The notes beneath the pieces are model-generated. The model did not search any database. It saw only the letters and a list, made by a program, of their open reading frames with translations, and was not told where the DNA came from. 43,232 nt of DNA from Planktothrix serta PCC 8927 (lineage in GTDB: Bacteria; Cyanobacteriota; Cyanobacteriia; Cyanobacteriales; Microcoleaceae): positions 244,448-287,679 of the forward strand of contig NZ_LR734865.1 of NCBI RefSeq assembly GCF_900010725.2, written 5' to 3'. A program made the translations under genes and the position numbers. This document shows positions 17,957 to 43,232 of the stretch, in pieces. How positions within the stretch are numbered: the stretch's first letter is position 1; each line of letters starts with the position of its first letter.

Positions 17957-19753
17957 TCACCACTGAGGAGTTAAGGATAGAAATTTAATCAATTCTTCTC
18001 CGGGTAAAGGTTTAGCAAAGAAATACCCCTGCCCAAATCCACAATTTAATTCTCTGAGTATTCCTAACTGTTCAGGTAATTCAATCCCTTCAGCAACAAC
18101 ACTCATATTCATTGTTTTAGCCAAGCTGATAATCACAGGAATTAAGCCCACATTTTCAGATTCTAGGTTGAGACGTTGAACAAAAGATTTATCAACTTTT
18201 AGAGTATCAACGGGAAAAGAATGGAGATAACTGAGAGAAGAATAGCCGGTTCCAAAATCATCAATACTAATTAAAATATGACGTTTTCTTAATTCCTTAA
18301 GAATCACGGCAACATCCTTTTCATTGTCCATAATAGCACTTTCAGTAATTTCCAGTTTTAAACAGTCAGGATGCAGTTGACTTTGAGCTAAAACGTAATC
18401 TATTTGTTCTAATAAATTCGGTTGAGCAAACTGTCTAACGGATAAATTAACACTTATAAACAAACTGGGATCAATTAAACCTTGTTTTTGCCAAGTTCGC
18501 AATTGATTACAAGCTTCTAATAAGACCCAATAGCCAATGGGAGTAATTAAACCCGTTTCTTCTGCAATGGGAATAAATAGACCGGGTGGGATTAAACCCC
18601 TTTGGGGATGACGCCAGCGAACTAAAGCTTCAAACCCGGCAATTTTTCCGGTATTTAAAGCAACAATCGGTTGATAATGAACGACTAATTCTTGTTGTTC
18701 AAGGCCTCGACGTAAATCCGTTTCTAACTGTAATCGTTCTAAAGCGGCTGCGTGCATCACCGGATCAAAAATATGATATTGTCCTTTGCCTAATGCTTTA
18801 GCTCGATACATGGCTGTATCCGCATCTCGCAGTAAATGTTCGGGTTCATTATATTGATTGTGACCGATGACAATCCCAATACTAGCATTAATAAAAACCT
18901 CATGCCTCTCTAAGTGAAAGGGTTCAGAAAAAGATGCTAAAACCTGATCCGCTAAGGCGATGACATGGGGAAAGTCGGGAATTTCAGTTAATAAAATTGC
19001 AAATTCATCACCCCCCAAACGAGCTAACGTATTGTGGGGTTTAATATAAAGGTTTAGACGGCGCGCAATTAAAATTAAGAGTTCATCTCCGACTAAATGA
19101 CCTAAAGAATCATTCACAACTTTAAAGCGATCGCAATCTAAAAATAACACGGCAAACTGATAGTTTTGATCAGCTTTGGCTCGCTGAATGGATTGCTGTA
19201 AGTCCGTCATCAATAAAGCCCGATTGGGTAAACCCGTTAGGGCATCATGAAGCGCCATTTTCAGCAATTTAGCATTGGCTTCTTCAAGTTGCTGCGTGCG
19301 TTCTTTTACCCGTGCTTCTAATTCCGCATTTAAGACCCTAACTTCTAATTCTGCTGCTCGTAAAGCCAATTGATTTTGGACTCGTGCTAATACTTCTTCA
19401 AATTGGAAGGGTTTAGTAATATAGTCCACCCCTCCCACTTGAAATCCTTTAACTTTATCGAGAACATCATCCAAAGCACTCAGAAAAATAATCGGAATTT
19501 CTGCGGTTTTGGGATTAATTTTTAGATGCTGGCAAACTTGATAACCATCCATTTCCGGCATCATAATATCTAGCAAAATCAAATCAGGAGCAACGGTTTG
19601 AGCCGCCGTTAATGCCATTGGCCCATTTAAAGCTTTGCGAACATTGTATCCCTGACGGGTGAGCATTCGGGACAATAAATGCAAGTTGTCCGGTGTATCA
19701 TCAACGATGAGAATATCATCAGTTTTAGTTAGATCAAGGTTGTAATGGTTCAT
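17957..19753 (-). CDS. Response regulator with GGDEF and EAL domains
   Basis: The 598-residue bifunctional cyclic-di-GMP protein has a receiver at 12-128 (VDDTP, phospho-acceptor D62 in LDIMMP), a coiled coil at 130-165, a GGDEF domain with intact [11 protein letters not shown], and an EAL phosphodiesterase domain. The EAL domain shows [26 protein letters not shown] and AEGIE, the usual metal- and substrate-binding sites, so both activities are possible. No RxxD inhibitory site precedes GGDEF. It is the first gene of an operon with the diguanylate cyclase downstream; paired receivers suggest joint control by one kinase. The orphan omega-RNA element lies just upstream and may supply or disturb its promoter. 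Confidence 0.93.
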
Positions 19754-19761
19754 CAGAAAAA

Positions 19762-19812
19762 TGGGTAGAAACCCCTAACTTCTAGTTAGGCTTTATATTT
19801 CCCTTTTCAGGG
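19762..19812 (-). repeat. Hairpin cluster at the far end of the orphan omega-RNA element
   Basis: cctaact-tct-agttagg (19773-19789) and ccct-tttc-aggg (19801-19812) are consecutive hairpins, followed by aggaggg/ccctcct (19813-19834 region). The first, with flanks, matches 13181-13224. I read it as the other terminus of a small IS-derived element of about 330 bases running from 20097 to about 19765. Confidence 0.5.
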
Positions 19813-19833
19813 AGGAGGGTATGATGGCCCTCC

Positions 19834-20097
19834 TAACTCCTATTTCTAGGGTAAAGTTAGCTTCAATAAGGTTTTAAGAGCTTGTTAGGCTAGGAGCATC
19901 AGTCTTACCCCTCGTAAAACTGTTTAACTACTAACGACAGAGCCAGGGACTAGCTACGCATCCAACAGGGTGTCTTGACTCAAAAAACGTAGTCAGTTAA
20001 GACTTAGGCGGGTACGAACTAACTAAAGTTAGAGGCATTACTTCGCGAAGCCTGCGCTCCGCGCATAGCCCCGTCACAGAGAGTGCGGGGTGCTGAC
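19834..20097 (-). ncRNA. Orphan IscB-type omega RNA (no iscB attached)
   Basis: Read on the minus strand this is a diverged second copy of the block upstream of iscB at 42718-42947. Both begin gtcagcaccccgc. Both share a 26-base identical core (here 19902-19927, there 42855-42880) containing acagttttacgaggggtaag. Both end with an identical 21-base stretch (19834-19854, there 42927-42947) containing cctagaaataggag. The first hairpin covaries between copies (cac/gtg here, tct/aga there). A 27-base repeat (about 20039-20066) is inserted into the scaffold after the first hairpin. No iscB frame follows; after ggagtta there is no start codon before the hairpin cluster. By analogy with IscB biology the guide would be the bases just before 20097 on the minus strand. 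Confidence 0.75.
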
Positions 20098-20284
20098 GTT
20101 GATAGGCAACAAATAAGATAGGGTATAGACTGAGGCTGGGAAGTTTAATCTCAAAGATCATCCCTATCCCAAAGCTCACTGATCTTTTTTAACAATTTTT
20201 CGGCATAAAAACAGTGATATACATCATCTTCATATCCGGCTCTGGTGAGAATTGTCGGTTGGTTTTCCACAAAGACACTTGAAT
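20098..20284. other. Non-coding stretch beside orphan omega RNA
   Basis: No supported gene. A minus-strand frame through 20151-20284 could be the tail of a decayed gene but overlaps the O-antigen ligase-like gene out of frame. The bases 20098-20117 are the presumptive guide of the orphan omega RNA. Confidence 0.4.
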
Positions 20285-21904
20285 TCAGACTAATCCTGGG
20301 GGTTGAGGGTAATCGGACTGAGCTTTCTCCTGTTCTTGTTGTTGAATTTTCGGTAATTTGAACAGTACGCCTACTAAGAACCAATAATAAACCGCTACCG
20401 GATCAGTATCAAGAGGATACCAATAAGGATTATAACTAATTAAAACAATAAAAATCCAAAAAACAATTCCATAACCCCACAAACTATGATCTGTTAATTG
20501 ATGATAGGATTTAAACCCTAAAATTGTGATATTAGTCACTAAGAATAAAAAAGCAGCCACTCCAAAGGGCCCAATTTCATACAATAATTTAGGATAATAC
20601 GCTTCAATTAATTGGGTTTTTCCTAATCCTCGTGCTGCGGTGGTTGCTTGTCCTAAACCATTGCCTAAAAAGCCTTGATGGGCTTTCAAACTAAAATCGG
20701 TTTGTTTGGTTAAAAAGACAGCAGGAGGATCAGCATTCCAACGTCCAATAAAGTTATCGACTCGTTCATTAATCATATTGGGAGCCAAAACATAAGTTGA
20801 CAGAATCAAGAGAAATATACCTACAACAATCACTAAAATTCGCTTAACCCGTGAAATGTGACTCGTGACAACTAGAAGCAAAATAATAATCGAAGGAACC
20901 GCTAAAAGGGCTGTTCTTTGACCACAAACAATTGCATTTAAAACGACTAAAGATAACGTTCCTAAACCCATTAAACGCCAATGGAATTTGGGGTCACTAA
21001 ATGCTGTTGCAAAACAAAAAAATGTACTGGAAATTAAAAACCACGCCCAATGCCAAGGGGCTACAAAGGTTCCCGGTAAACGAATAAAATTTTGGACAGG
21101 AAAATACCCTAACGCGCCTCCAACCAAACATTTTCGCTGCACATTTGCCCGCAATAACAAATTGTCGGGTAAACCCGTATTATCGGGGCAATATCCGGTT
21201 ACAACTAATCCAAATTGGATCAGTCCTAAGATGCAGCAAATCAGGATCAAAATAACTTGTAATCGGGTTAGAAATTGTAGTTCTTGTCGATTCCGAATTA
21301 GATAATAGGCACAAGTGATCAGGGGAATATATCCCAGTAAAACTTTTAAGCCAAATAATCCGACTAAAAAAGGTTGATTGTCTACGGTGGCGTTTCGTTG
21401 TAGAACGCCATTCACAGCCAGGAGTGTAACAACTACAATCGTGAAGAAAATTAACAGAGGAATCTTAAGTTGATGCGGATGAATCAGGGGTAATTTTTTT
21501 TTCCTTAATTCAACAATTAAACCGATTAAAGCCGGAATATAAAACCCATCTTTCGCTAAATGGAAAAGAAAATAATCGTTGCCAATCCCATAAGAAATTG
21601 TACCTGCAAACGGTAAATAAATTAAAAATGCCCATAATCCTTGACGGGGATATCGATAACACAACACCATGATCACCAGAGCCATACTGCTCAAGATGAT
21701 GGTACTTGTAGAAGCCCCATTCGCAAACAGCAACAGTCCCACCAACAGAGCTACAGCGCTGACGATACCCAAAAACTGTAAGAAATTTGACCTCTGTGGG
21801 GGAATCTGTTCGAGATCAATAACAGGCTGTTCAGTAAAGTTAACTTCTGAGTCAGGATGACTCTGATCTTGTGATTGTTGGGGTTGGTTGGGGAAGGGGG
21901 ACAT
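20285..21904 (-). CDS. O-antigen ligase/polymerase-like membrane protein
   Basis: I prefer the ATG at 21904 (539 residues) to the one at 22027: the upstream extension would overlap a small gene. The N-terminal 40 residues are hydrophilic (MSPFPNQPQQSQDQ), then about eleven hydrophobic helices span the rest. A large loop of the O-antigen ligase family type lies near FLTKQTDFSLKAHQGFLGNGLGQATTAARGLG, where the family carries H and GxGxG-like residues. Wzy/WaaL proteins polymerise or attach surface polysaccharide in the inner membrane. Without neighbours from a polysaccharide cluster the exact reaction is open. The C-terminus is hydrophilic and Q-rich. Confidence 0.75.
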   Translation of the reverse strand: MSPFPNQPQQSQDQSHPDSEVNFTEQPVIDLEQIPPQRSNFLQFLGIVSAVALLVGLLLFANGASTSTIILSSMALVIMVLCYRYPRQGLWAFLIYLPFAGTISYGIGNDYFLFHLAKDGFYIPALIGLIVELRKKKLPLIHPHQLKIPLLIFFTIVVVTLLAVNGVLQRNATVDNQPFLVGLFGLKVLLGYIPLITCAYYLIRNRQELQFLTRLQVILILICCILGLIQFGLVVTGYCPDNTGLPDNLLLRANVQRKCLVGGALGYFPVQNFIRLPGTFVAPWHWAWFLISSTFFCFATAFSDPKFHWRLMGLGTLSLVVLNAIVCGQRTALLAVPSIIILLLVVTSHISRVKRILVIVVGIFLLILSTYVLAPNMINERVDNFIGRWNADPPAVFLTKQTDFSLKAHQGFLGNGLGQATTAARGLGKTQLIEAYYPKLLYEIGPFGVAAFLFLVTNITILGFKSYHQLTDHSLWGYGIVFWIFIVLISYNPYWYPLDTDPVAVYYWFLVGVLFKLPKIQQQEQEKAQSDYPQPPGLV

Positions 21905-21926
21905 CAGATTATAATTATTTCCCAAA

Positions 21927-22142
21927 TTAAGGAATATTGAGTTCCCAAAGTTCCTGTAATTGATGTTGTTGGGGATAGGAAAGCCGTTCAAAGGCTTGCA
22001 TAATCTCAGAATGAGTATGATCAACAATCAAAGCCGCCAGTTGACCCACCGTTTCAGCTTCTAATAAAGCTAATTGCAACATTTCATCCTCGATGGTGTT
22101 GAGGTTAAGGGTTTGTTCTGAAGATAAAAGTTCTGTTACCAT
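21927..22142 (-). CDS. Small hypothetical protein
   Basis: A 71-residue frame from the ATG at 22142 (a TTG at 22151 adds three residues). It is acidic and helical, with leucine-rich heptads (ETVGQLAALIVDHTHSEIMQ) and ends PQQHQLQELWELNIP. No family is recognised. It ends 22 bases before the O-antigen ligase-like start and begins 40 bases after the MAPEG stop, so the three genes could form one operon. Confidence 0.5.
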   Translation of the reverse strand: MVTELLSSEQTLNLNTIEDEMLQLALLEAETVGQLAALIVDHTHSEIMQAFERLSYPQQHQLQELWELNIP

Positions 22143-42717: not shown

Positions 42718-42951
42718 GTCAGCACCCCGCTCTGAAGAGACGGGGCTTCATGCCTCCAACTTTAGATAGCTGACCAGCCTAAGCCTAACGGCTACGTTTT
42801 CTGAATCATAATACCCACGAATGCGACGCTAGTTTGTGGCTCTATTGTTAACAATTAAACAGTTTTACGAGGGGTAAGACAGTGTTGTTAACGCCAAAAG
42901 TTCAGAAAACATTGGCGAAGCGAACATTACCCTAGAAATAGGAGTTATTTC
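42718..42951 (+). ncRNA. IscB omega RNA scaffold
   Basis: The 234-base non-coding block ends at the iscB start codon and begins 6 bases after the stop of the SpoIID-like gene. It can fold: ccccg-tct-gaag-aga-cgggg near 42724-42744, an outer pair gtcagc (42718-42723) with gctgac (42769-42774), and the palindrome attgttaacaat. The core at 42855-42880 and the 3' block at 42927-42947 are identical in the orphan copy at 19834-20097. IscB nucleases are known to use an RNA encoded directly upstream of the gene, with the guide at its 5' end from the element flank. The guide would then be about 42700-42717, the last codons and stop of the SpoIID-like gene. The ribosome binding site aggag (42940-42944) lies within the 3' block. 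Confidence 0.8.
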
Positions 42952-43232
42952 ATGTCTAATTACGTCTTTGTAATTGATCCGAATAAACAGCCTCAAAACC
43001 CAATACATCCCGCCCAAGCTCGATTGTTATTGAATCAAGGTCAAGCTGCTGTTTATCGTCGTTATCCATTTACTATTATTTTAAAGGAGTCAAAACCCGA
43101 ACCAGAAATACAACAAATAACCCTCAAAATTGATCCCGGTTCAAAAAACACTGGAATTGCATTAGTTCAGGGAAATAAAGTAATTTGGGGTGCAGAATTA
43201 ACCCATCGGGGTCAAACAATTAAAATGTCTTT
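42952..43232 (+). CDS. iscB: IscB RNA-guided nuclease (Cas9-ancestor family), 5' part
   Basis: 93 complete codons are visible before the window ends. The start ATG at 42952 follows aggagttatttc. The N-terminal PLMP/RRXRR domain is unmistakable: VFVIDPNKQPQNPIHPAQAR (5-24), then the RRYPFTIIL mark (36-44). RuvC-I follows as TLKIDPGSKNTGIALV with catalytic D61. The segment AELTHRGQTIKMS leads into the arginine-rich bridge helix. The HNH domain, RuvC-II and RuvC-III lie outside the window, so activity cannot be judged. IscB proteins are encoded by IS200/IS605-superfamily elements and cut DNA with an omega RNA. The element has landed immediately behind the SpoIID-like gene. Confidence 0.92.
   Translation, partial: MSNYVFVIDPNKQPQNPIHPAQARLLLNQGQAAVYRRYPFTIILKESKPEPEIQQITLKIDPGSKNTGIALVQGNKVIWGAELTHRGQTIKMS

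Follow-up and report, generated by a model that had tools for sequence, protein, structure and literature searches.

Why should the guide-RNA scaffold of an RNA-guided nuclease directly precede the start codon of a gene for signalling, with no nuclease gene behind it? The question is raised by a 43,232-nucleotide stretch of the Planktothrix serta PCC 8927 genome (contig NZ_LR734865.1, positions 244,448 to 287,679; hereafter the window), whose minus strand carries a block that resembles the one preceding an iscB gene about 23 kb away. A reading of this DNA from its sequence alone had offered two answers, a trans-acting guide RNA or a miniature element, mobilised in trans, of which this RNA is the core. 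Both fit the data presented here: the miniature element is well supported by empty sites and by families of copies, whereas the trans-acting guide would follow from the model proposed below.

An omega-RNA scaffold without iscB abuts a start codon

Identical runs of 26 and of 21 bases occur in both blocks, and in the same order, as the sequence-only reading had pointed out; at the 5' end 13 more bases agree. When the window was compared with all Rfam families, two matches to RF02033 (HEARO) exceeded the gathering score of 83 bits: one at 19851–20097 on the minus strand (96 bits, E 1.5e-18), covering model positions 1–211, and one at 42718–42930 on the plus strand (166.2 bits, E 1.2e-35). These values exclude chance for both matches and bear out the proposed omega-RNA identity of the two blocks; a repeat unrelated to iscB loci was thereby ruled out. 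As had also been stated, nothing follows the minus-strand copy that could be called iscB, since neither similarity (tblastn) nor a reading frame was found in the 1500 bases downstream. The features of the two loci are as follows.

19754–20097, minus: whole element without iscB, 344 bp (GTCAGCACCC...CCATTTTTCTG); left junction from comparison with the nearest relative (L075 of G008), whose site is empty, the other eight congeners being likewise without the element
19851–20097, minus: orphan omega-RNA (HEARO) scaffold, Rfam RF02033
20098–20113, minus: presumed guide, 16 bases of host sequence adjoining the element on its 5' side (TTTGTTGCCTATCAAC), placed according to the known IscB omega-RNA layout
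19754–19850, minus: tail and right end of family A, common to the sister copies, at the position that iscB occupies in iscB-bearing copies (alignment of 15 family A elements)
19774–19790, minus: subterminal right-end hairpin CCTAACT/AGTTAGG (stem from a hairpin scan)
19754, minus: right junction, from empty sites and the limit of homology to sister copies
19750–19753, minus: target, a TAM-like ATGA that is the start codon of the downstream gene; same ATGA start in nine congeners
20040–20066 (approximate limits), minus: palindromic repeat in an omega-RNA loop, found by alignment in some sister copies only
17957–19753, minus: gene for a response regulator with GGDEF and EAL domains (PF00072, PF00990, PF00563), its start codon adjoining the element; beside the same upstream gene in nine congeners
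20285–22027, minus: gene upstream of the orphan; same order beside the downstream gene in nine congeners
42718–42930, plus: iscB-linked HEARO (RF02033), the copy with which the orphan was first compared
42952–43230, plus: N-terminal 93 codons of iscB, then N, then the C-terminal end (PF14239 RRXRR, 107.1 bits; contig read)

The feature is an omega-RNA scaffold with both ends of its element but without iscB, placed between a host leader and an ATGA start codon. The span first given for it, 19834–20097, turned out to be too short: the empty site and the end of homology set the element at 19754–20097, with no target duplication. At its 3' side it is flanked by an NTGA-type sequence, the ATGA at 19753–19750 of the minus strand. 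In the IscB omega-RNA layout the guide is located 5' of the element, in host sequence. A scan of 19700–20350 for one promoter type, sigma-70-like, found none.

The insertion sites are empty in most relatives

At the locus corresponding to 17957–22027 the orphan is absent from 9/9 congeners, in which the intergenic stretch leads directly into the downstream start codon. At the left junction the nearest relative reads TATCAA-A-ATGAACC, as against TATCAA-C-[element]-ATGAACC here; the C before the element was counted as host because the base before GTCAG varies among copies. Named records of the same locus come from Planktothrix, two Oscillatoriales MAGs and a more distant Lyngbya.

Two further insertions in the same genome lie directly 5' of a start codon. 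One of them (L010) corresponds to an empty site with a clean junction in 6/9 congeners; the site is occupied in 2/9, in one of which most of the omega-RNA has been deleted, and the gene start is uncovered in the last (G005). The other (L017, family B) is empty in 9/9 congeners. Clean empty sites in relatives are thus available for three sites of this genome, and the insertions display the traits of IS200/IS605-type elements: there is no target duplication and the target adjoins one end.

The family A insertion L239 (G009, at the start of a pilT-like gene) has lost most of its omega-RNA, and both its ends remain. In two of six orthologous pairs of insertions (L132/L158 and L010/L157) the element is 95–98% alike, against 79–89% for the adjoining coding DNA, and in L132/L158 the block of high identity begins about 17 bases before the element; in the other four pairs the element and the coding DNA beside it differ to about the same degree. 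The higher identity in the two pairs may stem from homing, from re-insertion or from constraint. When the six orthologous insertions were compared for a stronger constraint on the omega-RNA than on the tail, the two parts proved about equally alike.

The orphan belongs to families of miniature elements

A covariance scan for further iscB-less copies, as the sequence-only reading had suggested, showed that the window copy is not singular. The genome holds 41 HEARO matches with E values of 0.001 or less (31 above the gathering score and 10 below it) and nine RRXRR (IscB) matches, mostly fragments and several at assembly gaps. Sorted by their 3' flank, seven of the 41 fall into family A, 11 into family B and three into family C, six run into an iscB start, and the remaining 14 belong to none of these. 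Family A is that of the window element, which is itself one of the seven copies; another of them is truncated at the end of a contig. Within each of the three families the inner sequence is common to the copies, and homology between copies stops at the RTGA target. Fifteen aligned family A elements from three genomes are 82–100% identical. Multiple iscB-less copies that agree in inner sequence and have discrete ends have therefore spread as miniature, non-autonomous elements. An independent deletion of iscB at the window site was rejected, as sister copies have the same inner junction.

Of 120 genomes sampled across the order, 64 contain HEARO. Sixteen contiguous cyanobacterial assemblies of the order, selected for having HEARO matches, held 118 copies above cut-off, of which 56 have an RRXRR match within 400 bp downstream and 62 do not (two of these 62 have one at 400–3000 bp). 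Orphan omega-RNAs are common in this order. In one genome (G002) 7/8 HEARO matches are without IscB, and in one congener (G001; L094 and L101) two orphans above cut-off coexist with no RRXRR match in the genome, so that short-term persistence needs no IscB.

The RNA fold is kept, less well in the window copy

Conservation of the fold was assessed on 53 orphan omega-RNAs with a structure of 48 pairs, drawn from RNAalifold on the same alignment and from the Rfam consensus helices. In this set 95.3% of cells are paired, and 260 cells are changed on both sides, against a mean of 87 in shuffles that ignore the relatedness of the sequences (0/500 reach the observed value). Slid versions of the structure gave at most 41 two-sided cells, a control that favours the structure because the latter was partly derived from the same sequences. 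The number of pairs with any two-sided change is a weaker measure, with 19 against a shuffled mean of 16.3 and 25/500 shuffles reaching 19. Within families, two-sided cells numbered 25 in A (n=20), 23 in B (n=20) and 17 in C (n=9), the maxima of 500 shuffles being 18, 14 and 9 respectively. Some structure variants may have been exchanged with iscB-linked copies.

The conserved helices are not all intact in the window copy: 44/48 modelled pairs are kept and four are broken, two of them in a long-range GCC/GGC helix. This change is shared by one sister (L028), which scores 104.5 bits; four other sisters score 138.4 to 152.6 bits and the window copy 96. A sister with intact helices is L008. The window copy is thus among the poorer of its family; its scaffold is weakened, and the copy may be decaying. 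In a related IsrB, disruption of pseudoknot pairs, which may or may not include the counterpart of the GCC/GGC helix, abolishes nicking (PMC9581776).

The palindromic repeat at 20040–20066 is of the GCGCGGAGCGCAGGC type. Some copies carry it in this omega-RNA loop and some lack it there; different loops hold further palindromes (L119, L120 and L121).

The low score and broken pairs of the window copy are what would be expected of a dead remnant, in which a deletion at this site removed the gene from an iscB element and left the omega-RNA to decay. The 10/41 matches of this genome that fall below the gathering score and the two orphans of the congener without RRXRR point in the same direction. 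Seven copies in this genome and more in congeners have, however, the same inner junction and tail, which places the loss of iscB before their spread; in addition, the structure of the orphans is kept with two-sided changes and their sites are far from random, as described next. We therefore consider a dead remnant unlikely.

Orphans often dock at start codons and mostly face the downstream gene in sense

Of the 115 HEARO matches in the genus, 99 were analysed and 16 left out; the right end was mapped in 76 and not in 23, three supporting copies being required within the genus and two outside it. After removal of seven orthologous duplicates, 69 distinct sites remained, of which 14 have iscB or its remnants and 55 show no similarity to iscB. 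A site was called a start codon when its ATGA opens a frame of at least 100 codons without a long upstream extension.

By this definition 32/55 iscB-less sites abut a start codon, compared with 95/607 intergenic ATGA sites in 20 stretches, each of 20 kb, taken from three genus genomes (binomial, 7e-13); without L030, an element of 1136 bp whose middle was not examined, the count is 31/54. Two other nulls gave 7/97 (RTGA sites of the window) and 150/1088 (RTGA sites in the flanks of the loci); the one with the highest rate was chosen, given that genes are truncated at the edges of short loci and that the window is of small size. Start codons account for 11/21 sites in family A, 10/20 in B, 6/9 in C and 5/5 among the others. 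Sites with iscB are at a start codon in 3/14 cases, three of the 14 being undecided as the locus ends there (Fisher p 0.018 versus iscB-less sites).

Orientation is biased as well. The downstream gene is in sense at 51/54 iscB-less genus sites with a known neighbour (null 60%, p 1e-8), a count that includes five sites called inside a gene only through an alternative start up to 72 bases upstream, and both neighbours are antisense at 1/51 (null 25%, p 7e-6). The bias persists when start-codon sites are removed (19/22; null 53%, p 0.0013).

Outside the genus we used 40 of the 62 orphans, from five genomes (nine of the 62 belong to the genus and 13 further non-genus orphans were left out). Right ends were mapped in 23 and not in 17, and 10/23 are at a start codon (p 0.0014 with the Planktothrix null); one right end that looks misplaced by eye (L202) was scored as non-start. 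By genome the counts are 6/14 (G119), 4/5 (G065) and 0/4 (G049), none being mapped in G025 and G108, so that this replication rests on two of the three mapped genomes. With the same null, 36/40 orphans are in sense to the downstream gene (p 3e-5) and 1/35 has both neighbours antisense (p 5e-4).

GTGA replaces ATGA at nine of the 69 distinct genus sites, all in elements that end in CTTCCCAT(G/T)TTTTTCT(T/G), a CCCAT(G/T)TTTTTCT right end behind CTT; one of them (L002) has a family B body. Family A also ends in TTTTTCTG, but after CTACCCAT and at ATGA; L089 (TTTTTCTT) likewise sits at ATGA.

Docking at start codons could be a matter of insertion preference alone, the transposase reaching ATGA more easily there and guide expression being irrelevant. 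Elements that carry iscB dock at starts too (3/14), and the target tracks the make-up of the element, as seen for the 9/9 GTGA sites with a common end. Such a preference leaves unexplained that orphans away from start codons are still in sense to the next gene, and no longer motif around ATGA was noticed by eye on the distinct genus sites. This explanation thus also appears improbable.

All nine distinct family C right ends (L011, L015, L025, L129, L132, L133, L134, L137 and L155) contain a Shine-Dalgarno-like GGAGG or GGGGG a few bases 5' of the target ATGA, and would thus bring a ribosome-binding site to the gene at which they dock. A stretch of this kind was also seen in 5/14 iscB-type and 2/5 other right ends, and in 0/41 right ends of families A and B, whose docking may consequently harm the host gene.

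These ends bear on the possibility that the element is a 5' leader useful to the host, kept for its effect on expression of the downstream gene and independently of IscB. The family C ends, the start-codon and sense bias and the two orthologous pairs in which the element is more alike than its coding DNA are consistent with such a role. The 41 family A and B sites offer no ribosome-binding site, however, and the L017 insertion would part the GGAGG found shortly before the start in 5/9 congeners from its ATG; moreover, the other four pairs show no excess identity, and a plain leader would not need the omega-RNA fold that has been kept. A host-useful leader is, in our judgement, quite unlikely.

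Candidate IscB and transposase partners

The iscB gene at 42952 exists as the sequence-only reading had said, but its role as partner of the orphan is less secure, for it may be broken: either it has an internal deletion or its missing part fell into a repeat gap, and a working gene there is only putative. In this genome several iscB copies run into N gaps, between one base and about 2 kb long (among them the copy at the end of the window, from 43231 onward on contig C45), as collapsed repeats do, and counts of intact iscB are therefore lower bounds. No complete iscB frame is visible in this draft assembly with its N gaps. On contig C7, an IscB is open over 357 codons to its stop and hits NF040563, its N-terminus lying in a gap; it is a better candidate partner than the iscB 23 kb away. 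Two congeners have an intact IscB of 425 residues, and the IscB frame of L098 is intact. An IscB partner for the orphan RNAs is plausible on these grounds.

Y1 transposase (PF01797) has nine matches in the genome, none beside a HEARO, and none of the six Y1 loci inspected has HEARO-like ends. HEARO nucleases occur only sparsely beside TnpA according to published work (PMC9755519), which is in line with mobilisation in trans.

The host-derived guide could in principle match elsewhere, and the orphan RNA might then act as a regulator that directs IscB to other genes, whether IscB cuts them or not. For the final 12 bases of the guide adjoining RTGA the genome has no second full match, and allowing one mismatch yields one hit, namely the left junction of the element itself; with two mismatches there are eight further places, against four for a control pattern. 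A guide aimed at another gene of this genome finds no support in this search, and we regard regulation as very improbable.

Proposed mechanism

The best explanation of these data, to which we assign a probability of roughly 0.6, is a miniature, non-autonomous IscB-type element that is moved in trans, whose guide is transcribed by the host and whose copies are retained by an IscB from elsewhere. An IS200/IS605-like transposase acting in trans would move the element. As the guide is the host sequence directly 5' of the element, only host transcription makes a complete guide RNA, and copies in sense between a host promoter and its gene could yield one if expressed. An IscB encoded elsewhere in the genome would use the orphan RNAs and cut the empty site beside its TAM (ATGA); repair from an occupied chromosome copy would then restore the element.

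The HEARO match, the three start-codon insertions, the families, the docking and sense bias, the kept structure and a possible IscB partner argue for this model. Against it stands the lower frequency of start-codon docking in iscB-bearing copies, which a pure expression-selection model does not predict. The broken pairs of the window copy, the lack of a complete iscB frame in this genome, persistence in the congener without RRXRR, family A and B ends without a Shine-Dalgarno-like stretch, the absence of Y1 beside HEARO and the one weak covariation measure also count against it.

A more far-reaching and tentative version, which we hold as possible without favouring it, is a dispersed guide bank. 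Miniature elements docked at start codons would take the host promoter and 5' leader as promoter and guide, and one or a few IscB genes would serve them all in trans, fixing copies across many chromosome copies.

Relation to known systems

If the proposed model is true, a guide-RNA system outside CRISPR is split into many guide loci and few nuclease loci, which shows how an element with an external guide can get that guide transcribed. Several cyanobacterial genes, including the c-di-GMP-type signalling gene studied here, would then carry a mobile structured leader.

The element agrees with HEARO RF02033 and the IscB omega-RNAs of OMEGA systems in its full-length model match, its fold, its host-derived 5' side and the RTGA on its 3' side; it differs in standing without iscB in cis, in having a family-specific tail instead and in docking frequently at start codons. 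The 2009 HEARO paper reportedly describes HEARO in Arthrospira and insertion next to ATGA or GTGA, which makes novelty of the target itself improbable. That omega-RNAs can occur as orphans is already known. Stand-alone omega-RNAs in Ktedonobacter were reportedly presented in the 2021 OMEGA paper; like the orphans studied here they have no adjacent nuclease and were proposed to act in trans, whereas the cyanobacterial ones form mobile families for which ends have been mapped and empty sites found, and which are biased towards start codons and sense orientation.

MITE/PATE-like derivatives of IS200/IS605 elements are short, have no transposase or nuclease gene, carry hairpins near their ends and make no target duplication. 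The orphan element shares all of these traits but has retained the structured scaffold of a guide RNA.

Neither docking at start codons nor the sense bias was found described in the literature searched, which included parts of PMC8400943, PMC9755519, PMC8987985, PMC9581776 and PMC11870625, the 2009 HEARO and 2021 OMEGA papers lying outside this scope. A related IsrB cuts next to ATGA and TTGA and uses NTGA TAMs (PMC9581776). The earlier statement that no description existed in cyanobacteria does not hold, since HEARO RNAs were annotated in Limnospira indica in an RNA-seq study (PMC8400943). In the relevant passage of that study they were set aside as 'post-splicing, post-mobility intron remnants', and so the likeness lies in HEARO RNAs of a cyanobacterium and the difference in their treatment as intron remnants, with no analysis of the element there. 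A parallel to the retention step comes from IS200/605 elements that are retained in plasmids by TnpB (PMC11870625): there, as proposed here, the guide records the insertion site and cutting of the empty site retains the element. The nuclease is TnpB and not IscB, it is encoded in cis, and retention was established by experiment, whereas for the Planktothrix orphans it is a proposal.
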